Assembly (NCBI RefSeq): GCF_003594885.1
Contig: NZ_QZEZ01000008.1
Span: 124,001-188,000, forward strand
Origin: Vallicoccus soli
Lineage (GTDB): Bacteria; Actinomycetota; Actinomycetes; Motilibacterales; Motilibacteraceae
Direction of reading: 5' to 3'
DNA: 64,000 bases
Shown piece by piece: positions 44,862 through 55,906 of the stretch; the stretch's first letter is position 1; every line of letters starts with the position of its first letter. The notes beneath the pieces were generated by a model. The model saw only the letters and a list, made by a program, of their open reading frames with translations. It ran no database searches and was not told where the DNA came from. Position numbers and translations under genes: made by a program.

Positions 44862-44882
44862 GGGGCGAGGCCCGCCTCAGGC
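44856..44882. terminator. Bidirectional hairpin spanning two convergent stop codons
   Basis: GCCTGAGG (44856-44863) pairs with CCTCAGGC (44875-44882) around an 11-nt loop. The stem includes both stop codons of the convergent TIGR03086 and IclR genes. Confidence 0.65.
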
Positions 44883-45704
44883 CGAGGCCGTGCCGCCCGC
44901 GCCGCGCTCGAGCTCCACGTGGGGGCGGGACCGCCACAGCGCCCACTCGGCGCTGACGTCGCCCGCGGTCCGCAGCAGCAGCGGCAGGTGGTCCTGCAGC
45001 AGCCGCTCGACGGAGGTCTCGGCCGCGTGGACGGTCACGTTCATCGCGGCGCGCACGCTGCCGGTGCCGTCGCGCACCGGCACCGCGACCGAGCGCACCC
45101 CGGGCGCGAGCTCGGAGTCGGCGAGGGCCCAGCCCCGGGCCCGCACCTGCACGAGCTCCTCGCGCAGCGCGGGGAGGGGACGGCCGATGTACGGCGGCAG
45201 GCCCGACCGGCTCGGCTCGCCCAGGACCGCCTCGAGGCGGTCGTCGGGCAGCGCGGCGAGCAGCACCTTGCCCTGCGAGGTCTGCGGCGCCGGGAAGCGC
45301 GTGCCCACGTCCACCCGCAGGGCGATGAGCTTCGGGACCGACACCCGGGCGACGTAGACGATGTCCGAGCCGTCGAGCTGGGCCATCGACGTCGACTCGC
45401 CGGTGCGGGCGACCAGCGCCTCCATGTGCGGGCGGGCGACGTCCCACAGCCCGAGCGAGCTCACGTACGCCGTCCCCAGCGCGAGGACGCGCGGCGTGGG
45501 GGAGAAGGCGCCGGCGGACGAGCGGACGTACCCGAGCTCCTCGAGGGTGAGCAGCAGCCGGCGCGCGGTCGGCCGGGCGAGCCCGGTGCGCGCCGCGACC
45601 TCGCTCAGCGTCATCGCCGGGTGCTCGCCGTCGAAGCTGGCCAGGACGTCGAGGCCGCGAGCCAGCGCCTCCACGAAGTCCGGGCCCTCGCCCCGTCCCG
45701 CCAC
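44877..45704 (-). CDS. IclR-family regulator (PcaR/PobR-like)
   Basis: A 275-residue IclR regulator. The N-terminal winged helix contains VEALARGLDVLASFDGEHPA, MTLSEVAARTGLARPTARRL, LLTLEELGYVRSS. The effector domain has AQLDGSDIVYVARVSVPKLI and FPAPQTSQGKVLLAALPDDR. The opening FVEALARGLDVL is typical of the PcaR/PobR/CatR branch that controls aromatic catabolism, consistent with the LigAB-type genes nearby. It lies 36 nt behind the amidohydrolase gene and is probably cotranscribed with it. Confidence 0.9.
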   Translation of the reverse strand: MAGRGEGPDFVEALARGLDVLASFDGEHPAMTLSEVAARTGLARPTARRLLLTLEELGYVRSSAGAFSPTPRVLALGTAYVSSLGLWDVARPHMEALVARTGESTSMAQLDGSDIVYVARVSVPKLIALRVDVGTRFPAPQTSQGKVLLAALPDDRLEAVLGEPSRSGLPPYIGRPLPALREELVQVRARGWALADSELAPGVRSVAVPVRDGTGSVRAAMNVTVHAAETSVERLLQDHLPLLLRTAGDVSAEWALWRSRPHVELERGAGGTASA

Positions 45705-45740: not shown

Positions 45741-47216
45741 TCAGCCGAGCACGCGGTCGCTGCCCGCCGCGTGCGTGGAGGCGGACCTGTAGTCGGTGTA
45801 CTGGTACGGGTTGTCCAGCACCTCGGTGCCCGGCAGGTCCGGGTCCATGCCCCGGGCCCAGTCGTCCTCGCCGATCGTCGCACGCAGGTGCTCGACCGTG
45901 GCCTCGGCCTGCGCCCGCAGCGCGGCCAGGTCCACCCCGACCAGCGCGCCGTGGTGCTTCACGACCCGCCCGTCGACGAGGACGGTGTGCACGTCGCCGC
46001 GCTGCGCCTGGAACGCGACGTGCCCGTACGGGTTCAGCAGCGGGAAGGAGACGGGGGAGCGGTCGTTCTTGACGAGCACGAGGTCGGCCTTGGCGCCCGG
46101 CGCGACCAGGCCGAGGTCGTCCCGCCCGAGGGCACGCGCCCCGCCGCGGGTGGCCCAGTCCACGACGTGCTCCGCGCGCAGGTGCACGTGGGTCACCGTG
46201 TCGCCCCGCTGGTGCGCCTCGAGGTGCTCGCGGGAGCGGTCGGCCCCCAGGGTGGTGCGCATGGCCGAGAAGAGGTCGCTGCTCCACCAGACGCTCGTGT
46301 CCATCGAGAGCGAGACGGGGATGCCGTGGCGGCGCAGCTGCCAGGTGGGCGGGTAGCCCTGCCCGGCGCTCTGCTCGGACTCCGTGGACACCGACACCGA
46401 GCCGCCGGTGGCGGCGATGCGGTGGTAGGAGTCGGTGGAGAGGGTCGCGGCGTGGACGTAGACCGTGTCGGGCCGCATGAAGCCGTGCTCGTGCATGAGC
46501 CGGATGCCGTCGTCGCCCGTGGCGCCCCAGACGCCCGCGTGCGTGGTCACCGGCAGCCCGAGCTCGCGGGCCACCTCGAAGGCCGCCCGCTCGGGGAAGG
46601 CGGGGTCGCCGGTGACGTCGAAGGCGAGCTGCACGCCGAGGCGGTCGTCGCCCGCGTCGCGCAGCCGGGTCAGGAAAGCGCGTACCGCCGGATCGGCCGT
46701 CCACTCCCAGGGGGCCGCCTGGATGTTGCCGTACGCCAGCACCCATCGGCCGGGCACGGCGCGCAGGGCGTCCACCGCGGCCTCCGCGTGCTCCAGGGAC
46801 TGCAGGCCGTGCGACCAGTCCACCGTCGTGGTCACGCCCGCCTCGAGCGCGTCCCAGGCCGAGAGCAGGTTCCCCGTCCGCACGTCCTCGGGGCGGAAGG
46901 CCCGGTCGTGCTCGAGGTAGTACCAGACGAAGTACTGCGTCAGGCTCCAGTCGGCGCCGTAGCCGCGCATCGCGGTCTGCCACATGTGCCGGTGGGTGTC
47001 GACCATGCCCGGCATGACGACGCCGCCGGACGCGTCGACCTCCAGCGTCCCGGCCGGCACGTCGAGGGCGGAGCCGACGGCGGCGACGCGGTCGCCCACC
47101 ACGAGCACGTCGGCCCCGGTGAGGACGCTGTGCGCGTCGTCCATCGTCAGCACCGTGCCGCCGCGCAGGACGACGGGGCGTCCCTCCTGCGGCGCGAAGG
47201 GGGCAGCGTCCGTCAC
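45741..47216 (-). CDS. Amidohydrolase of the ATZ/TRZ-chlorohydrolase group
   Basis: A 491-residue cytosolic metal hydrolase. The HxH metal pair is in VMPGMVDTHRHMWQ, further ligands are likely in LPVTTHAGVWG and VYVHAATLS, and the catalytic Asp is in SLSMDTSVWWSSDLFSAM. The closing GLVAPGAKADLVLVKNDRSP is also typical. Members deaminate, dechlorinate or hydrolyse cyclic amides, imines and N-heterocycles. Next to a ring-cleavage cluster it may open or deaminate an aromatic or heterocyclic precursor. GTG at 47216 follows GAGGAGGAGTC. Confidence 0.9.
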   Translation of the reverse strand: MTDAAPFAPQEGRPVVLRGGTVLTMDDAHSVLTGADVLVVGDRVAAVGSALDVPAGTLEVDASGGVVMPGMVDTHRHMWQTAMRGYGADWSLTQYFVWYYLEHDRAFRPEDVRTGNLLSAWDALEAGVTTTVDWSHGLQSLEHAEAAVDALRAVPGRWVLAYGNIQAAPWEWTADPAVRAFLTRLRDAGDDRLGVQLAFDVTGDPAFPERAAFEVARELGLPVTTHAGVWGATGDDGIRLMHEHGFMRPDTVYVHAATLSTDSYHRIAATGGSVSVSTESEQSAGQGYPPTWQLRRHGIPVSLSMDTSVWWSSDLFSAMRTTLGADRSREHLEAHQRGDTVTHVHLRAEHVVDWATRGGARALGRDDLGLVAPGAKADLVLVKNDRSPVSFPLLNPYGHVAFQAQRGDVHTVLVDGRVVKHHGALVGVDLAALRAQAEATVEHLRATIGEDDWARGMDPDLPGTEVLDNPYQYTDYRSASTHAAGSDRVLG

Positions 47217-47295
47217 GACTCCTCCTCGAGGTCGACCGGCTGCTCGGCGTACCGCTGTCCGTGCTGCGTACGCGCGGGTCTCGTCGCCCACGATG

Positions 47296-47364
47296 GGCTG
47301 CGCGGGCTACGCCGTCAAGGTGGCGGGGAAGGCCTTGACGCCGCGCAGGGGGCGGAGCGACACT
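47296..47364. promoter_or_regulatory. Back-to-back divergent promoters sharing an inverted repeat
   Basis: CGTCAAGG (47313-47320) and CCTTGACG (47333-47340) are an 8-bp inverted repeat, and each arm holds a TTGACG -35 box facing outward. On the minus strand TTGACG is followed after 17 nt by CATCGT (47295-47290), toward the amidohydrolase. On the plus strand it is followed after 18 nt by GACACT (47359-47364), toward the CoA-transferase. The -10 hexamers are weak. Confidence 0.5.
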
Positions 47365-47403
47365 CCCGACCACTACGGCGGACAGTCGTCCGGTGGACGG
47401 TCA

Positions 47404-47422
47404 GCACCCGACCATCGGGTGC
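47404..47422. promoter_or_regulatory. 19-bp operator palindrome upstream of CoA-transferase gene
   Basis: GCACCCGA-CCA-TCGGGTGC: perfect 8-bp arms with a 3-nt spacer, 25 nt before the GTG at 47448 and downstream of the candidate promoter. Position and symmetry suit a repressor site, most simply for the adjacent IclR protein. Confidence 0.65.
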
Positions 47423-47447
47423 GGCGCGACGACGGGAGGTGGAGGGC

Positions 47448-48665
47448 GTGGCGGAGGGCGGCGGGACGCGCGGCGCCGCTGGCGGCGGGCCGCTGGCCGG
47501 CCTGCTCGTGGCGGACTTCTCGCGGATCCTGGCGGGGCCGTACGCGACGATGCTGCTCGCGGACCTGGGGGCGGAGGTCGTCAAGGTGGAGTCCCCCGCG
47601 GGGGACGACACCCGCACCTGGCAGCCGCCGGTGCGCGACGGGGTCTCCACCTACTACCTCGGCGTCAACCGGGGGAAGCGCTCGGTCGCCCTCGACCTCA
47701 AGGACCCCGACGACCTGGCCGCGGCGCAGGAGCTGGCCCGGCGCGCGGACGTGCTCGTCGAGAACTTCAAGCCGGGCGGCCTCGCCCGCTTCGGCCTCGA
47801 CTACGGCACGGTGAGCGCCACCAACCCCGGGGTCGTCTACGCCTCGATCAGCGGCTTCGGCAGCGGCCCCGGCGGTGCCGCCCTGCCCGGGTACGACCTC
47901 ATCGTCCAGGCGATCTCCGGGCTGATGAGCCTCACCGGGTCGCCCGAGGGCGAGCCCTACCGCGCGGGCATCTCGGTCTTCGACGTCATGGCCGGGCTGC
48001 ACGCCACCATCGGCGTGCTCAGCGCGCTGCACGCCCGCGCGCAGAGCGGCACCGGCCAGCACGTCGAGGTGAACCTGCTCAGCTCCGCGCTGTCCGGGCT
48101 GGTCAACCAGTCGAGCGCGTACGTCGCCGGCGGGGTCGTCCCGCAGCGCATGGGCAACAGCCACCCGAGCCTCTTCCCCTACGAGCCGCTGCCCTGCGCC
48201 GACGGGGACCTCATCGTCACCGCGGGGAACAACGGCCAGTTCCGCCGGCTCGTCGAGGTGCTCGGCGTGCCGGAGCTCGCCGACGACCCCCGGTTCCTGC
48301 GCAACGAGGACCGCACCGCGCACCGCGACGAGCTGCGCCCGCTGCTCGTCGAGCGGCTGCGCACCCGCGGCAAGCTCGCGTGGTTCCGGGACATCATCGC
48401 GGCCGGGGTGCCGTGCGGGCCGATCAACACCGTCGAGCAGGGGGTCGCCTTCGCCGAGGAGGTCGGCCTGGACCCGGTCGTCGTGGTGGGGGAGGGCGAC
48501 GCCGCGGTCCCGACGGTGCGCAACCCGCTGCGCCTCTCCGCGACGCCGCCGTCGTACCACCTGCCGCCCCCCGCCCTCGACGAGCACGGCGACGCCCTCC
48601 GCCGCTGGCTGTCCACCCCCGCACCCGCACCCGCACCCGCACCCGGCGAGGAGCCCCCGGCATGA
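47448..48665 (+). CDS. CaiB/BaiF family (type III) CoA-transferase
   Basis: A 405-residue class III CoA-transferase. Hallmarks are LLVADFSRILAGPYATMLLA, DLGAEVVKVESPAGDDTRTW, YYLGVNRGKRSVALDLKDP and the catalytic Asp region GYDLIVQAISGLMSLTGSPE. It should move CoA between carboxylic acids, here probably onto a tricarboxylic or hydroxy acid that the next gene product splits. The C-terminus ends in a Pro-Ala run made by a hexanucleotide repeat. It overlaps the lyase gene by 4 nt (ATGA). GGGAGG lies 8 nt before GTG at 47448. Confidence 0.93.
   Translation: MAEGGGTRGAAGGGPLAGLLVADFSRILAGPYATMLLADLGAEVVKVESPAGDDTRTWQPPVRDGVSTYYLGVNRGKRSVALDLKDPDDLAAAQELARRADVLVENFKPGGLARFGLDYGTVSATNPGVVYASISGFGSGPGGAALPGYDLIVQAISGLMSLTGSPEGEPYRAGISVFDVMAGLHATIGVLSALHARAQSGTGQHVEVNLLSSALSGLVNQSSAYVAGGVVPQRMGNSHPSLFPYEPLPCADGDLIVTAGNNGQFRRLVEVLGVPELADDPRFLRNEDRTAHRDELRPLLVERLRTRGKLAWFRDIIAAGVPCGPINTVEQGVAFAEEVGLDPVVVVGEGDAAVPTVRNPLRLSATPPSYHLPPPALDEHGDALRRWLSTPAPAPAPAPGEEPPA
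48621..48644 (+). repeat. Hexanucleotide repeat GCACCC x4
   Basis: Four GCACCC units in the 3' end of the CoA-transferase gene encode alternating Pro-Ala. Copy number could vary without a frameshift. Confidence 0.8.
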
Positions 48666-49462
48666 GCACCGACGCGACGCCGACGTACCCGACCTCGCTG
48701 GGCACGTCGACGGCCGAGGAGATCCGGCTGCTCGGGCACGACGTCGCCCACGACCTCATGGGCTCGGTGGGCCTCGGCGAGCTCGCGCTCTGGCTGATGA
48801 CGCTGGAGCGGCCCGACCCGTCCGAGGTGCGCCTGTTCGAGGCGGTCCTCGTCGCCCTGGCCGACCACGGCTTCACCCCCACCGCCATCGCGGCGCGCCT
48901 GACGTACCTGTCGGCCCCCGACTCCCTGCAGGGGGCGGTGGCGGCGGGCCTGCTCGGCGGCGGCTCGCGCTTCCTCGGCGTCACCGAGGACTGCGGGCGC
49001 TGGCTGCACGCCGCGCTCGAGGAGCGCGGCGGGGACCTGCCCGAGGACGAGGACGGCTGGGACGCCCTCGCGCTCGCCGCCGTGCGCCGCACCCGCGAGC
49101 AGGGCCGCTACGTCCCCGGGCTGGGCCACCCGGTCCACAAGGTCCGCGACCCCCGCACGGCGGCGCTGTTCCGCATCGCCGAGGACGAGGGGCTGCTCGG
49201 CCCGCACCTGCTGCTCTTCGAGGCGGTGGGACGGGTGCACGAGCAGGTCCTCGGGCGCCGGCTCCCGCTCAACGGCGCCGGGGTCTGCGGTGCGGCGCTC
49301 GCCGACCTCGGCGTCCCCGTCGACCTCTTGCGCGGGCCGGCCCTGCTCGCGCGCGCCGCCGGCCTGCTGGGCCAGCTCGCGGAGGAGCGCCGCCGCCCGA
49401 TCGGCATGGACGCCTACCTGGCCGTGGACCGCGCCGCCGTCTACGTGGACCCCTCCGCCTGA
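48662..49462 (+). CDS. Citryl-CoA-lyase / citrate-synthase-fold protein
   Basis: A 266-residue protein, far shorter than citrate synthase (about 430) and matching the C-terminal catalytic core used by citryl-CoA lyases. Catalytic-type segments are VPGLGHPVHKVRDPRTAALF (the His in GLGHPVHK) and RLPLNGAGVCGAALADLGVP (NGAG). The DPSEVRLFEAVLVALADHGF stretch is also family-typical. It would cleave a 3-hydroxy tricarboxyl-CoA such as citryl-CoA or a related acyl-CoA into acetyl-CoA (or analogue) and a 2-oxoacid. It is coupled by ATGA overlap to the CoA-transferase. Confidence 0.88.
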   Translation: MSTDATPTYPTSLGTSTAEEIRLLGHDVAHDLMGSVGLGELALWLMTLERPDPSEVRLFEAVLVALADHGFTPTAIAARLTYLSAPDSLQGAVAAGLLGGGSRFLGVTEDCGRWLHAALEERGGDLPEDEDGWDALALAAVRRTREQGRYVPGLGHPVHKVRDPRTAALFRIAEDEGLLGPHLLLFEAVGRVHEQVLGRRLPLNGAGVCGAALADLGVPVDLLRGPALLARAAGLLGQLAEERRRPIGMDAYLAVDRAAVYVDPSA

Positions 49463-49511
49463 CCCGCACCCCACCACCAGGCACCCCGCCCAGCACGCAA
49501 GGGAGCGCTGC

Positions 49512-50375
49512 ATGGCCACCGTCGCCGCGGTCGTCGCCTCGACGCACCACCCCTTCTACTACCGCGCCAGCACGTCCACCGGCGACGAGCGGCCGCCGTT
49601 CGCGGACGCGTGGGTCGCGAAGGTCGAGGCCTTCCGGGAGACGCTCACCCGCGCGGAGCCCGACGTGCTCGTCATGGTGGGCAGCGACCACTTCCACCAG
49701 CTGTGGCTCGACAACATGCCGCAGTTCCTCGTCGGCAAGGCGCCCTTCTTCGACGCCAACTGGTACAACGAGGAGCGGGAGTTCGGCCTGCCGCGCATGG
49801 TCCTCAAGGGCGAGGAAGCGCTTGCCGCGCACATCCTCCGCGAGGGCCTCGACGCCGGGTTCGACCTCGCCTTCAGCAACGAGCTGCGCATCGACCACAG
49901 CATCACCTGCCCGATCATCACGCTGCGGCCGCAGGCGGACCTGCCGATCGTGCCGGTCTACACGAACATCTTCGCCCCGCCCCTGCCCCAGCCGCGCCGC
50001 TTCGTCGAGCTCGGCCGCACCCTGCGGCGGCTGGTGGAGTCGTGGCCGGTCGACAAGCGGGTGGCCATCATCGGCACCGGCCACCTGTCCCTCGAGCTCG
50101 GCGGCCCGCGGCAGTTCGGCGAGCACGGGCCCGACCCGGAGTTCGACCGCCGCGCGGTCGACTGGATCGCGAGCGGGGACGTCGAGGGGTGCCTCGCCGA
50201 GGTGACGCTCGACAGCCTGCACGCACCGGGCAACGCCACCCACGGGTTCATGGACTTCATGCTCATGATGGGCGTCGCCGGCGACGGGGCGAAGGCCGAC
50301 CACGTCGACACCCTCGACCTGTTCCACACCATGGAGGCCTACTTCACCTGGTACCCGGAGGGAGTGCCCGCATGA
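49512..50375 (+). CDS. Extradiol ring-cleavage dioxygenase, LigB-type catalytic subunit
   Basis: A 287-residue class III extradiol dioxygenase. Iron-ligand candidates are the His pair in VVASTHHPFYYRA, the His residues of MVGSDHFHQLW, and a Glu in the C-terminal half. IGTGHLSLELGG contains the conserved catalytic His region. It would cleave a catechol-type ring at the meta position with Fe(II) and O2. The exact substrate (protocatechuate, gallate or another) is not visible. Overlaps the small subunit gene by 4 nt. Confidence 0.9.
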   Translation: MATVAAVVASTHHPFYYRASTSTGDERPPFADAWVAKVEAFRETLTRAEPDVLVMVGSDHFHQLWLDNMPQFLVGKAPFFDANWYNEEREFGLPRMVLKGEEALAAHILREGLDAGFDLAFSNELRIDHSITCPIITLRPQADLPIVPVYTNIFAPPLPQPRRFVELGRTLRRLVESWPVDKRVAIIGTGHLSLELGGPRQFGEHGPDPEFDRRAVDWIASGDVEGCLAEVTLDSLHAPGNATHGFMDFMLMMGVAGDGAKADHVDTLDLFHTMEAYFTWYPEGVPA

Positions 50376-50731
50376 GCAGGTACCTGCTCGACAAGTTCCT
50401 CTACACGGTCGACCGCGACCCCGACCTGGTGGAGCGCTACCGGGAGGACCCCGCGGGGACCGTCGCCTGGTGGGAGCGCGAGCGCGCGGGCCAGCTGCTG
50501 AACTGCCTGGTGTCGGAGCGCACGACCTGGCTCGCGTTCACCGACGAGGAGCGCGACGCCCTGGTCCGGCAGGACCACGTCGCCCTGTTCCAGCTCGGCG
50601 CGCACCCGTTCCTCACCCTGACGCTCTTCATCGCGATGTTCGAGCGCGACCACGGGCCGCTGGAGTACCAGAAGGCGTACGGCCGGGCGATGCAGCACCT
50701 GAGCCTGCCCTACCCCGACATCGCGACCTGA
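50372..50731 (+). CDS. LigA-type small subunit of extradiol dioxygenase
   Basis: A 119-residue helical protein of the LigA superfamily: YLLDKFLYTVDRDPDLVERY, CLVSERTTWLAFTDEERDAL and a conserved C-terminal region LGAHPFLTLTLFIAMFERD. In protocatechuate 4,5-dioxygenase the LigA chain covers the active site of LigB. The order here (large then small) is opposite to that in Sphingobium ligAB. The ATGA overlap supports equimolar translation. Confidence 0.88.
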   Translation: MSRYLLDKFLYTVDRDPDLVERYREDPAGTVAWWERERAGQLLNCLVSERTTWLAFTDEERDALVRQDHVALFQLGAHPFLTLTLFIAMFERDHGPLEYQKAYGRAMQHLSLPYPDIAT

Positions 50732-50732
50732 C

Positions 50733-51692
50733 GTGCGCGCCGCCGTCCTGCGCCGGCCCGGCGCCGCGCCCGTCCTCGCCGAGCACCCGGACCCCGCGGC
50801 GGGCGAGGTGCTCGTCCGGGTCACCGCCGCGCCGGTCGTGCCCCTCGACCTGCTCTGCGCCTCGGGCACCTCCTACTTCGGGCGCCCCGCCGTCCCGTAC
50901 GTCCCCGGGGTCCAGGGCGTCGGGGTCGTGGAGGGCGGCGCCGGCCCGGCGCCCGGCACCCGCGTCTGGTTCGCGACGAGGGCCGGCATGGCGCCCGGCG
51001 ACGGCAGCCTGGCCGAGCGCTGCGCCATGCCCGGGCAGGACGTGGTGCCCCTGGCCGACGGCGTGGGTGACGAGGTCGCGGCCGCCGTGGGCCTCTCCGG
51101 CGTGGCCGCGTGGATGGCGCTGTCCTGGCGCGGCGCGCTGCAGCCGGGGGAGCGGGTCCTCGTGCTGGGCGGCGGGGGTGCCGTGGGCCAGGCCGCCGCC
51201 GGCGCGGCCCGCGTGCTCGGCGCCGCCCGCGTGGTCTCGCTCTGCCGCTCCGAGGCGGCGGCCGCGCGCGCCCGGCGGGCGGGGGCCGACGCGGTCGTAC
51301 GGCTCGACGGGGACGAGGCCGCCCTCGCCGCGGCGCTGCGCGACGCCCTGCACGGCCCGGCCGACGTGGTCGTCGACCCGGTCTTCGGCCCGGCGGCCGC
51401 GGCGGCCTGCCGCGCCCTCGCACCGGGCGGGCGGCTGGTCAACCTCGGCGGCGCCTCCGGTGACACCGCCGTGCTGTCCTCCGCGGTCCTGCGCAGCGCC
51501 GGCGCCGGCGTCCTCGGCTACACCAACAACGCCCTGTCCCCGGCGCAGCGCGCGCGGGCGCTGACCGACGTGCTGGCCGCGGCGGCGCGCGGCGACGTCG
51601 TCGTGGAGCACGAGGTCGCGGCCCTCGACGCGGTGGGCGCGGCCTGGGCGTCGACCGCGGCGGGCGGCACGAGGACCGTGCTCCGGCCCTGA
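50733..51692 (+). CDS. Quinone-oxidoreductase/zinc-independent MDR family dehydrogenase
   Basis: A 319-residue medium-chain dehydrogenase/reductase. The GroES-like part has AGEVLVRVTAAPVVPLDLLC, and the NADPH-binding motif is VLVLGGGGAVGQAAAGAARV. Catalytic and structural zinc Cys clusters are absent, as in quinone oxidoreductases and enoyl reductases. It starts 1 nt after the LigA stop, so it is part of the same transcript and may reduce a ring-fission or CoA-bound intermediate. Confidence 0.87.
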   Translation: MRAAVLRRPGAAPVLAEHPDPAAGEVLVRVTAAPVVPLDLLCASGTSYFGRPAVPYVPGVQGVGVVEGGAGPAPGTRVWFATRAGMAPGDGSLAERCAMPGQDVVPLADGVGDEVAAAVGLSGVAAWMALSWRGALQPGERVLVLGGGGAVGQAAAGAARVLGAARVVSLCRSEAAAARARRAGADAVVRLDGDEAALAAALRDALHGPADVVVDPVFGPAAAAACRALAPGGRLVNLGGASGDTAVLSSAVLRSAGAGVLGYTNNALSPAQRARALTDVLAAAARGDVVVEHEVAALDAVGAAWASTAAGGTRTVLRP

Positions 51693-51724
51693 GGCGGCGC
51701 TAGGGTCCGGCGCGTGGGGTGCGC

Positions 51725-52663
51725 ATGAGGGTCACCGTGGTCGGCGCCGGGGTGGTCGGCCTGACGGTGGCGCACGAGCTGGCCGCCGCCGGGCACGCGG
51801 TGCGGGTCCTGGCCGACGCGGACGCGCAGGCCAGCACCTCGGGGGCGGCCGCCGCGCTCTGGTTCCCCCACGGCGTGCCGCACACGCCGCAGGTGCTCGC
51901 CTCCGCGGCGGCGACCTACCGCCGCCTCGTGGACCTCGCGCGCGACCCGGCCACCGGCGTGCGGGTGCGCGCGGGCACGGTGCTGTCGCGCCGTCCCGAC
52001 CCGGACCGGTCCTGGACGTCGGCGGTCCCCGAGCACCGCGTGCTCGGTCCCGGCGAGGCGCCCGCCGGGGCGAGCGGGGTGCGCTGCACCGTGCCGCTGG
52101 CCGTCACCGGCACCTACCTCGCATGGCTCCAGGAGCAGGTGCGCCGGCGGGGCGTCGCCCTCGAGCGCCGGGCCGTCGGGTCGCTGGCCGAGGTGGAGGG
52201 CGCCGACGCGGTCGTCGTCGCCGGCGGCGTGCGCTCGCCGGCGCTGCTCGGGGACGACCGGACCACGGTCCCCGTACGGGGCCAGGTCGCCCGCCTGGCC
52301 AACCCCGGGCTCACCGAGTGGGTGACCGACGACGACAACCCGGACGGGCTCACGTACGTCGTCCCGCGCGACGGCGACGTGGTCTGCGGCGGCACCGGCG
52401 ACGTCGGGGCCTGGGACCGCAGCGTGGACCCCGCCGTCGAGGACGCGGTGCTGCGCCGGGTGCGCGCCCTCGTCCCCGCGCTCGCCGACCGGCCGGTGCT
52501 GTCCCGGGCCGTGGGCCTGCGCCCCGGCCGCCCCGACGTGCGCCTGGAGCCGGTCGAGGGCCACGGGCGCCCCGTCGTGGCCTGCTACGGCCACGGCGGC
52601 GCCGGGTTCACGCTCTCCTGGGGCGACGCCGGCCGCGTGGTGCGGCTGCTCGAGGGCGCCTGA
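51725..52663 (+). CDS. D-amino-acid-oxidase-like FAD-dependent oxidoreductase
   Basis: A 312-residue flavoprotein of the DAAO family. FAD-binding VTVVGAGVVGLTVAHELAAA opens the protein, ASTSGAAAALWFPHG follows, LTYVVPRDGDVVCGGTGD is typical of the substrate domain, and GHGGAGFTLSWGDAGRV closes it. It should oxidise D-amino acids to 2-oxoacids with release of ammonia and hydrogen peroxide, though related amine oxidases look similar. An in-frame GTG at 51719 could also start it. It is 32 nt behind the MDR gene and may be an accidental passenger in the operon. Confidence 0.88.
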   Translation: MRVTVVGAGVVGLTVAHELAAAGHAVRVLADADAQASTSGAAAALWFPHGVPHTPQVLASAAATYRRLVDLARDPATGVRVRAGTVLSRRPDPDRSWTSAVPEHRVLGPGEAPAGASGVRCTVPLAVTGTYLAWLQEQVRRRGVALERRAVGSLAEVEGADAVVVAGGVRSPALLGDDRTTVPVRGQVARLANPGLTEWVTDDDNPDGLTYVVPRDGDVVCGGTGDVGAWDRSVDPAVEDAVLRRVRALVPALADRPVLSRAVGLRPGRPDVRLEPVEGHGRPVVACYGHGGAGFTLSWGDAGRVVRLLEGA

Positions 52664-52691: not shown

Positions 52692-53561
52692 TCAGTACGG
52701 GCAGGTGCTCCGGTACTCGGCGATCGCCGTGCTCGTGGCCGGCGCGGGGCAGAGGAACCGGTCGTAGCGCAGGTCGTCGTCCACGAACCGCTTGAGCCAG
52801 GACAGCGTGTACGTGGCGATGGTCGTGTTGGAGACGGTGGGCGCGAGGTGCCCGGCGCCGCGCAGCTCGAGGTAGGCCTTGTCGAGGGTCGCGGGCAGGG
52901 AGGCGTAGAAGGGCTCGGAGTGCGAGCGCACCGGGGCGACCCCGTCGTCCTCGGCGCCGATGACGAGGGTGGGCGTGCGCACCTCGGGCCAGGTCTTGTC
53001 GAGGTTCCACCCGGTCAGCGGGACGGCGGCCTGCAGCGACGGGTCGTCCTTGGCGGCCTCCAGGGCACCGCCGCCGCCCATCGAGTGCCCGACGACCGCG
53101 AGCCGGGTCGGGTCGATGCGGGCGCGCACGCTGCTGCGCTGGGTCAGGTACGCCAGCGCGGCCCGCAGCTGGTCGCCGCGGGAGGCCGGCTGGTCGTACG
53201 TGCTGAGGGTGTCGATGGTGATGACGACGAAGCCCTGCGAGGCCAGGCGCGGGCCGAGCCAGGCGATGCTGGACTGGCGCGCGGTGTAGCCCGGGGAGAC
53301 CGCCACGGCGCCGAACGTCCCGGCCGTGGTCGTCGTGGGGTAGTAGACCGTCCCGCCGCCGAAGCCGCTGACGGCGTAGCGGGACACGCTGGTCTGCGCG
53401 ACGGCGAACGGGCCGCGGGCGGCCTCGACGCTCGCGGTGGTGGGCTCCGGGCCCCGCGCGTACGGGTTGTCCGCGGCACCCGCGGGCTGGGCGAGGGCGG
53501 GCAGGGCGGCGGCGAGCAGGGCGGCGGCGAGGGGGGCGCGCAGCCGACGGGCACGGGTCAC
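52692..53561 (-). CDS. Secreted polyester hydrolase / cutinase with PET-hydrolase hallmarks
   Basis: A 289-residue secreted alpha/beta hydrolase. The signal peptide ends near residue 30 (AGAA). The mature part follows the TfCut2/LCC/IsPETase family almost segment by segment: NPYARGPEPTTASVEAARGP, FGAVAVSPGYTARQSSIAWL, GFVVITIDTLSTYDQPASRG. The triad is Ser160 in VVGHSMGGGG, Asp206 in IGAEDDGVAPV and His238 in RGAGHLAPT. Tyr92 and Met161 supply the oxyanion site, Trp185 the aromatic clamp. Cys271 and Cys287 match the conserved C-terminal disulfide. Gly184 and Leu239 differ from the usual Pro and Phe. GTG at 53561 follows GGAGGACCTCCACC. Confidence 0.95.
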   Translation of the reverse strand: MTRARRLRAPLAAALLAAALPALAQPAGAADNPYARGPEPTTASVEAARGPFAVAQTSVSRYAVSGFGGGTVYYPTTTTAGTFGAVAVSPGYTARQSSIAWLGPRLASQGFVVITIDTLSTYDQPASRGDQLRAALAYLTQRSSVRARIDPTRLAVVGHSMGGGGALEAAKDDPSLQAAVPLTGWNLDKTWPEVRTPTLVIGAEDDGVAPVRSHSEPFYASLPATLDKAYLELRGAGHLAPTVSNTTIATYTLSWLKRFVDDDLRYDRFLCPAPATSTAIAEYRSTCPY

Positions 53562-53689
53562 GGTGGAGGTCCTCCCTGACGGGCGGTGGCGGTGTCGCGG
53601 CAGAAGGTAGTGCTGTGCGGCACCCGGTCGCATCCCCGGTGCGACCGATCGCGTCAACATCGTCACAGCACGTCGCCGCGTGACGCAGG

Positions 53690-55906
53690 ATGGGTGGCGG
53701 TCGGCAGCAGGGACGGGGGCGGGACGTGGCGGCAGAGGGGTCGTTCGCGGACTTCCGGGACGCGGCGCAGGTCGTGCTGGAGGACCTGCGCGGGCGCGTC
53801 GGCCTGGACAGCTGGCTCGTGGCGCGGCGCACGGGCGGGGACTCGGTCGTCCTGGCGGCCGCCGAGGACGACCCCTTCGGGCTCGCGCCCGGCGCCAGCC
53901 GGCCGTTCGAGGACACGTACTGCGTGCGGGTGCTCGACGGGCGCGCACCGGCGGCGGCCGCCGACCTCGACGAGCACCCCGCGCTGGTGCAGGCGCGCGC
54001 CGCCAACGGCGTCCCGGCCCGGTCGGTGCTCGTCCTGCCGCTGCCCGGGCCCGACGGCGAGGTGCTCGGCACGCTCTGCGCGACCGGGCGCGCCCCCTAC
54101 CCGGGCGGGCAGCCGGAGCTCGACGCGGCCCTGCCCACGGTGCGGGTGCAGGCCTCGCTGCTCGGCGCGCTGCTCGCGCGCGAGCTGCGCCTCGCCGAGG
54201 CGGCCCGCCGGGCCGAGCGGGCGGAGGCCGCCGCGACGACCGACGTCCTCACCGGCGTGGGCAACCGCCGGGCCTGGGACGAGGCGCTGGCCCACGAGGA
54301 GGCCCGCGCCACCCGGTACGCGGGCGACGTCGCGCTGGTCGTCGTCGACCTCGACGGCCTCAAGGCCGTGAACGACGAGCAGGGCCACTCCGCGGGCGAC
54401 GAGCTGCTGCGGGTCGCCGCACGGGTCCTGCGGGCGCGGGCGCGCGAGAGCGACCTCGTCGCGCGCCTCGGCGGCGACGAGTTCGGGCTGCTCCTGCCCG
54501 GCACGGACGGCGCCGGCGCGGCGGCGCTCGCGGCGCAGCTGCGCGGCCTGCTCGCCGCCGAGGGCGTGGGCGCCTCGGTGGGGGCCGCCGCCCGGCCGAC
54601 CTCCGGCAGCCTCGCCGACGCGTGGCGCGCGGCGGACGCCTCCATGTACGCCGAGAAGGTCGCGCGCCGGTCCCGCGCGCTCGCCGAGCGGGCCGGGGAG
54701 CGGCCGCGGCCGGCCGGTCGGGCGGGCTCGGCGGCGCAGGCGGCGCAGGCGGCGGCCGCACCCGCCCCGCCGGCGAGCGTCGACGCGCTGCTGCGCCTCG
54801 CGCGCGACCAGCTCGGCATGGAGGTCGCCTTCCTCAACCGGTTCGACGGCGAGCAGCGCACGTTCCGCAACGTCCAGGCGCGGGTCCCCCTGCCCTTCGC
54901 GGCGGGCCGGACCGAGCCGCGGCAGGGCACGTACTGCCAGATGATCGTCGACGGCGCCCTCGGCGAGGTCACCCCGGACACCTCCCGCGACGACCGGGTG
55001 CGCGACCTGCCCATCACCGCCGAGCTGGGCATCGGCGCGTACGTCGGCGTCCCCGTGCACCTGCGCGACGGGCGCCTCTACGGCACGCTCTGCGCGTTCT
55101 CCCGCGAGCCCGACCCGACGCTGCGGGACCGCGACGCCCAGGTCCTGCGCTCCCTGCGCCAGGTCGTGGCCGACGTCGCCGAGCGCGAGGACGGGGAGGA
55201 GGCGCGGCGCCACGAGGTGCTGGCCCGGCTGGACGCCCTGCAGGCCGAGGGCGGCCCGCAGATGGTCTTCCAGCCGGTGCTCGAGCTGGACGGGCTGGGG
55301 CAGGTCGGGGTCGAGGCGCTGAGCCGGTTCCCGACCGGCTCGCCGGACGCGTGGTTCGCCGCCGCCGCCGCGGCGGGCGCCGGCCCGGACCTCGAGCTGC
55401 GGGCCGTGGCGCGGGCCCTCGAGGCGCTGGAGCACGTGGAGGGCTTCCTCGCCCTCAACGTCTCCCCGGCGACCGTCGCCACCCCCGAGCTCGCCCGCCG
55501 GCTCGCCCCGTACCCCCCGGGGCGGATCGTGCTGGAGGTGACCGAGCACGAGGCGATCGCCGACTACGACGGGCTCAACGCCGCCCTGCGCCCGCTGCGC
55601 GGCGCCGGCGTCCGCCTCGCCGTGGACGACGCGGGCGCCGGCTTCGCGAGCATGCGCCACGTGCTCGCGCTCGCGCCCGACGTCCTCAAGCTCGACACGA
55701 GCCTCGTGCGCGGCATCGACGCGCACCCCGGGCGCCAGGCGCTCGCCACGGCGCTCGCGACCTTCGCCGCGGCCACCGGCGCCACCGTGGTCGGCGAGGG
55801 CATCGAGACGCAGGCCGAGCTCGACCTGCTGCGGGACCTCGGCATCGCGCACGGCCAGGGCTTCCACCTGGCCCGGCCCGCGCCCCTCCCGGTGCCCGCC
55901 GGCTGA
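53690..55906 (+). CDS. GAF-GGDEF-GAF-EAL cyclic-di-GMP synthase/phosphodiesterase
   Basis: A 738-residue cytosolic signalling protein. Domain order is GAF (about 20-165), GGDEF (about 183-330), an Ala-rich linker, GAF (about 363-505), EAL (about 520-735). The GGDEF motif is intact (ARLGGDEFGLLL) and an RESD I-site lies five residues before it, so the cyclase half should be active and product-inhibited. The EAL half has GVEALSRF, LALNVSPATV, LEVTEHEAIADY, DDAGAGFASM, LKLDTSLVRGI, VGEGIET and GQGFHLARP, so the phosphodiesterase also looks active. A GTG at 53726 is an alternative start. Confidence 0.93.
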   Translation: MGGGRQQGRGRDVAAEGSFADFRDAAQVVLEDLRGRVGLDSWLVARRTGGDSVVLAAAEDDPFGLAPGASRPFEDTYCVRVLDGRAPAAAADLDEHPALVQARAANGVPARSVLVLPLPGPDGEVLGTLCATGRAPYPGGQPELDAALPTVRVQASLLGALLARELRLAEAARRAERAEAAATTDVLTGVGNRRAWDEALAHEEARATRYAGDVALVVVDLDGLKAVNDEQGHSAGDELLRVAARVLRARARESDLVARLGGDEFGLLLPGTDGAGAAALAAQLRGLLAAEGVGASVGAAARPTSGSLADAWRAADASMYAEKVARRSRALAERAGERPRPAGRAGSAAQAAQAAAAPAPPASVDALLRLARDQLGMEVAFLNRFDGEQRTFRNVQARVPLPFAAGRTEPRQGTYCQMIVDGALGEVTPDTSRDDRVRDLPITAELGIGAYVGVPVHLRDGRLYGTLCAFSREPDPTLRDRDAQVLRSLRQVVADVAEREDGEEARRHEVLARLDALQAEGGPQMVFQPVLELDGLGQVGVEALSRFPTGSPDAWFAAAAAAGAGPDLELRAVARALEALEHVEGFLALNVSPATVATPELARRLAPYPPGRIVLEVTEHEAIADYDGLNAALRPLRGAGVRLAVDDAGAGFASMRHVLALAPDVLKLDTSLVRGIDAHPGRQALATALATFAAATGATVVGEGIETQAELDLLRDLGIAHGQGFHLARPAPLPVPAG

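Follow-up and report, generated by a model that had tools for sequence, protein, structure and literature searches.

The closest described relatives of the protein analysed here are PET40 (PDB 8A2C, from an unclassified Amycolatopsis), the Streptomyces exfoliatus lipase (1JFR) with the Streptomyces LipA/BHETase group, and PHL7/PES-H1 (7NEI, 7CUV); LCC (4EB0) and IsPETase (6EQE) share its fold and catalytic triad at lower identity. Within this family, LipA variants from Streptomyces are able to degrade BHET, and PET film is roughened by S2LipA (PMC11169514). The high PET turnover of PHL7 has been ascribed chiefly to L210, and the L210F substitution lowered activity by 32% at 8 h (PMC10076380); tabulated across three studies, the activities of L210F are discordant, at 0.60-, 0.69- and 1.07-fold (PMC12371127). 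As described in PMC13179365, PHL7 G155 lies within a buried water network that contacts the catalytic Asp and His, and the G155P substitution raised the Tm by 2.5 C and reduced activity to 0.69-fold. According to the same source, P155G in the hyperstable R2M2 lowered the Tm from >95 to 87.5 C and brought activity from 0.46- to 0.80-fold, and D208S in the R2M2 background raised activity to 0.54-fold.

A gene for an enzyme of this kind was analysed in a stretch of 64,000 nucleotides from Vallicoccus soli (the window; positions are counted from its first letter). The gene and the elements at its 5' end are the following.

52692..53561, minus strand: PET hydrolase-like/cutinase-like serine esterase of 289 amino acids, probably secreted; GTG start at 53561, TGA stop ending at 52692
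53571..53575, minus strand: GGAGG, which probably serves the GTG start as its ribosome-binding site, 9 bases upstream (sequence CAGGGAGGACCTCCACC-GTG)
53475..53561, minus strand: probable signal peptide, residues 1 to ~29 (VTRARRLR-APLAAALLAAALPALA-QPAGA), read from the sequence, with an inferred cleavage site

The GC content at codon positions 1, 2 and 3 is 0.68, 0.60 and 0.98, respectively, and the minus-strand frame and its GTG start are supported by the third-position value together with the upstream GGAGG. Since the codon GC, the GGAGG and the match to PF12740 (E=6.5e-118) agree, we regard the open reading frame as a real gene and not a chance one. The sequence-only reading gave the right coordinates and named no strand; a plus-strand reading of 52692-53561 was also considered and rejected. 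The protein is probably secreted, as judged from its sequence. Read by eye, its leader has Arg-rich, hydrophobic and AxA-like parts, and similar leaders are present in many relatives; the PF12740 match begins at residue 29, and residues 1-30 of the structural model, the predicted leader region, have pLDDT values <50. The gene is single copy, with no paralogue in the Vallicoccus soli genome (4.04 Mb, 20 contigs).

On one side, the gene adjoins a cluster at 45741-52663 that encodes an SsnA/TRZ-like amidohydrolase (minus strand), a CaiB-type CoA-transferase, a citryl-CoA lyase-like protein and a LigB-type extradiol dioxygenase, followed by a 119-aa protein, a quinone-oxidoreductase-like protein and a DAO-type FAD oxidoreductase. 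An IclR regulator encoded at 44877-45704 may control this cluster. The 119-aa open reading frame (50372-50731) shares 4 bases with the end of the LigB gene and looks LigA-like by eye, and it had no Pfam or NCBIfam match at the thresholds used. The DAO-type oxidoreductase gene (51719-52663), which lies beside the PETase-like gene, was found in none of the four genomes searched from the same family, and neither was the PETase-like gene itself; their common absence suggests a lineage-specific stretch. On the other side, a GGDEF-EAL-GAF c-di-GMP protein is encoded divergently at 53690-55906; it has as many as 64 matches in the genome.

The sequence-only reading had assigned the protein to the type I bacterial PET-hydrolase family, and this assignment was borne out. 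The PET hydrolase-like profile PF12740 matched residues 29-288 over profile positions 2-263 of 263, with 393.3 bits against a cut-off of 28, and the GxSxG-containing triad, formed by S160, D206 and H238, aligned with the triads of the solved enzymes. The NCBIfam BHET hydrolase equivalog NF051441 scored 507 bits, below its curated cut-off of 520, and by the NCBIfam rule the protein is therefore a very close relative and not an equivalog. Sequence searches of the PDB returned PET40 (3.8e-127), the S. exfoliatus lipase (3.6e-125) and PHL7/PES-H1 (1.0e-117 for PHL7), with laboratory-reconstructed ancestral PETases (8ETX and others) also among the top matches. An AlphaFold2 model built with 21 aligned relatives had a mean pLDDT of 86.8, and in Foldseek its best PDB fold match was PET40 (8a2c), the S. 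exfoliatus lipase and PHL7 being matched as well. As seen for type I polyester hydrolases (PMC10076380), a His (H159) precedes the catalytic Ser, the loop after the catalytic His is not extended, having the length of PHL7's, and a second disulfide is absent, the whole protein containing two cysteines, C271 and C287. In that type, moreover, the residue that follows the catalytic His in subsite II is a Phe; here it is Leu239, as in PHL7, and we therefore describe the protein as type I-like, its subsite II being of the PHL7 type. Overall, membership in the type I bacterial PET-hydrolase/cutinase family is strongly supported by these sequence comparisons.

The active-site and disulfide residues named by the sequence-only reading (Y92, S160, M161, G184, W185, D206, G237, H238, L239, C271 and C287) were correctly numbered on the preprotein. 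Their frequencies were counted in 94 aligned homologues, comprising a class-wide search, hits of a search for relatives and fetched stretches. The class-wide search covered 394 genomes, of which 77, the Vallicoccus soli genome among them, matched at E<=1e-40. The class-wide sample was used because a near-relative set of 80 sequences is biased to Gly184, which it over-represents, GWNLDKTW having been among its search patterns.

53286..53288, minus strand: Tyr92, oxyanion hole/aromatic clamp; Y or F in 93/94 homologues
53079..53084, minus strand: catalytic Ser160 and Met161 in GHSMGGGG; S160 in 94/94, M161 in 89/94
53007..53012, minus strand: Gly184-Trp185, Gly ahead of the clamp Trp; W in 84/94; at position 184, P in 85, G in 7 and A in 2
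52944..52946, minus strand: catalytic Asp206; 94/94
52845..52853, minus strand: Gly237-His238-Leu239, the catalytic His with its flanks; His in 94/94, Gly237 in 7/94, Leu239 in 11/94
52749..52751, minus strand: Cys271, predicted disulfide with Cys287; Cys in 88/94
52701..52703, minus strand: Cys287, predicted disulfide with Cys271; Cys in 88/94

The neighbours of the active site had been called unusual, with Gly184 and Leu239 in place of what are usually Pro and Phe, and GAGH in place of a common GASH. As seen, Pro184 (85/94) and Phe239 (71/94, against 11 Leu) are indeed the usual residues, and at position 237 Ser (49) outnumbers Thr (17), Asp (14) and Gly (7). Of the three features, only GAGH is rare in both samples; the exact Gly184/Gly237/Leu239 triple was found in 0 of 180 other sequences. 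However, Gly184 and Leu239 correspond to the natural residues Gly155 and Leu210 of PHL7 (7NEI, 7CUV), a solved enzyme that ranks among the best studied for PET degradation, and Gly also precedes the clamp Trp in solved PET40 and the S. exfoliatus lipase. Among the same 180 sequences, the Gly184/Leu239 pair occurs only in PHL7 and three Streptomyces proteins. The triple thus appears only partly unusual, a mildly interesting PHL7-like combination.

Comparison with the named enzymes, for which the PHL7, LCC and IsPETase references were the PDB chains letter for letter, places these residues in context. PET40 is the most similar (~73% aligned identity), with the same triad, the Gly before the clamp Trp and the His before the catalytic Ser, but it has Phe for Tyr92 and GASHF where the present protein has GAGHL. 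The S. exfoliatus lipase (~71%) and the Streptomyces LipA group likewise have Gly before the Trp, in LTGWN, but carry GASHF and belong to a separate clade. PHL7 (68%) shares, in addition to G155 and L210, the Gln at its position 95 and the His before Ser, whereas it differs in Phe63 for Tyr92, Leu93 for Tyr122, a His in place of Asn186 following the clamp Trp, and Ser208 at the equivalent of Gly237. LCC is only 56% identical and has Pro and Phe at sites 184 and 239; IsPETase (50%) is of type IIb: its Ser follows a Trp, its loop is extended and it has an additional disulfide.

A phylogeny against characterised PET hydrolases, which had been proposed as a check, was run. In a quick tree of 86 sequences, the protein fell in its own clade of 14 (SH-aLRT 98) together with proteins of Kineococcus, Cellulomonas, Promicromonospora, Brachybacterium and Arthrobacter, the Kineococcus rubinsiae protein (~75% identical) being a close sister. 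A literature search on Kineococcus and PET hydrolase found nothing relevant. All 13 other members of the clade have Pro184 and Ser237, and their position 239 is Phe (11), Ser (1) or Tyr (1). A more careful tree, built from 37 sequences after masking of columns 184, 237 and 239, grouped 12 of the clade rows with modest support (86/86). In this tree, grouping with the Streptomyces Leu239 proteins was rejected (p-AU 0.00013), but grouping with PHL7, which the best tree keeps apart, was disfavoured (13 log-likelihood units worse) and not rejected (p-AU 0.148). Because Pro184 and Ser237 are retained in all 13 relatives and Leu239 occurs in none of them, the three substitutions are most simply read as changes on the lineage of the Vallicoccus soli protein, and an ancestry shared with PHL7 seems less likely.

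Taken together, we consider with a probability of roughly 85% that the gene encodes a secreted serine esterase of the type I cutinase/PET-hydrolase family that cleaves polyesters or lipids and would have a PHL7-like lean to turnover. After export and removal of the signal peptide, a polyester chain or lipid would lie in a shallow groove on the surface, flanked by Tyr92 and Trp185, and Ser160, activated by His238 and Asp206, would attack the ester bond. The oxyanion would be held by the backbones of Tyr92 and Met161, in subsite II Leu239 would pack against the chain on its leaving side, and the predicted Cys271-Cys287 disulfide would tie down the C-terminus. The expectation that the neighbouring sites affect activity or stability finds support in PHL7 mutagenesis at the same positions, as given in PMC10076380 and PMC13179365. 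Since in those experiments Gly155 and Leu210 favour turnover and Pro155 stability, we infer that the enzyme may lean to turnover over stability; compared with Pro184/Phe239 relatives, Gly184 and Leu239 should raise turnover and slightly lower thermal stability, the transfer of residue effects from PHL7 being uncertain at 68% identity.

The natural substrate would most likely be a plant polyester or lipid polyester of the cutin or suberin kind, and PBAT, PCL, BHET and amorphous PET may be accepted promiscuously. PET itself is an unlikely natural substrate. No ring-hydroxylating dioxygenase large subunit (PF00848) was found in the Vallicoccus soli genome, the controls matching in 4 of 14 genomes, and Vallicoccus soli is therefore unlikely to grow on terephthalate through the known pathway. 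In a tannase/MHETase search the control genomes gave no match, so that it is uninformative here. About a fifth of the 394 class genomes carry a homologue at E<=1e-40 and the four same-family genomes lack one; the gene is therefore a patchy, common accessory gene.

Of the other explanations, a lipase or carboxylesterase that has this fold, hydrolyses small esters or lipid esters and attacks solid polyester barely or not at all, its residue changes being neutral drift, deserves some weight, although we doubt it. The 71% identity to the S. exfoliatus lipase would fit such an enzyme, as would the missing PF00848 protein, since PET is then unlikely to have selected the gene. On the tree, a minimum of 9 changes of Leu239 and of 10 changes at position 184 were counted, as drift would give. 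However, characterised members at comparable identity (PET40, PHL7 and Streptomyces LipA) hydrolyse polyesters or BHET, and the residues of the substrate groove are conserved. It is unlikely that the three substitutions form a functionally selected set, converged on PHL7, with turnover above that of the sister enzymes. The sharing of Gly and Leu with PHL7 against a clade that lacks them, the rejected Streptomyces grouping, the separate place of PHL7 in the best tree and the link of these sites to turnover in PHL7 mutagenesis all speak for it; nevertheless, the independent pairs are too few for a judgement on correlated change of 184 and 239 or of the three sites together, shared ancestry with PHL7 retains some probability at a p-AU of 0.148, and Gly237 stands where PHL7 has Ser208. 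A stronger form, in which a naturally occurring enzyme that is not of the PHL7 lineage gained the Gly/Leu pair independently, acquired the Gly beside the catalytic His as well and is a mesophilic polyesterase with above-average PET/PBAT turnover, strikes us as quite improbable. Finally, that the esterase releases an aromatic monomer as the functional partner of the aromatic-degradation genes at about 45.7-52.7 kb is very improbable, for although a LigB-type extradiol dioxygenase gene (PF02900) lies 2.3 kb away, the PETase-like gene is on the opposite strand and convergent with the cluster, none of six tested neighbour proteins adjoins the PETase genes of relatives in the fetched loci, and the genome has no PF00848 protein.

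The polyester- or lipid-cleaving secreted esterase preferred here is an ordinary actinobacterial cutinase/PET-hydrolase and no new kind of enzyme. Knowledge of the PET-hydrolase family is unchanged by it, most of the residues called unusual being familiar from PHL7 and related enzymes, where the mutagenesis has already been done. It adds one more natural PET hydrolase candidate, sensible for an assay or screen, whose residue triple lies at positions that PHL7 engineers alter by hand and that in relatives are mostly Pro, Ser and Phe. Moreover, the Vallicoccus soli protein and its Kineococcus rubinsiae sister form a natural pair for comparing stability with turnover at these sites.
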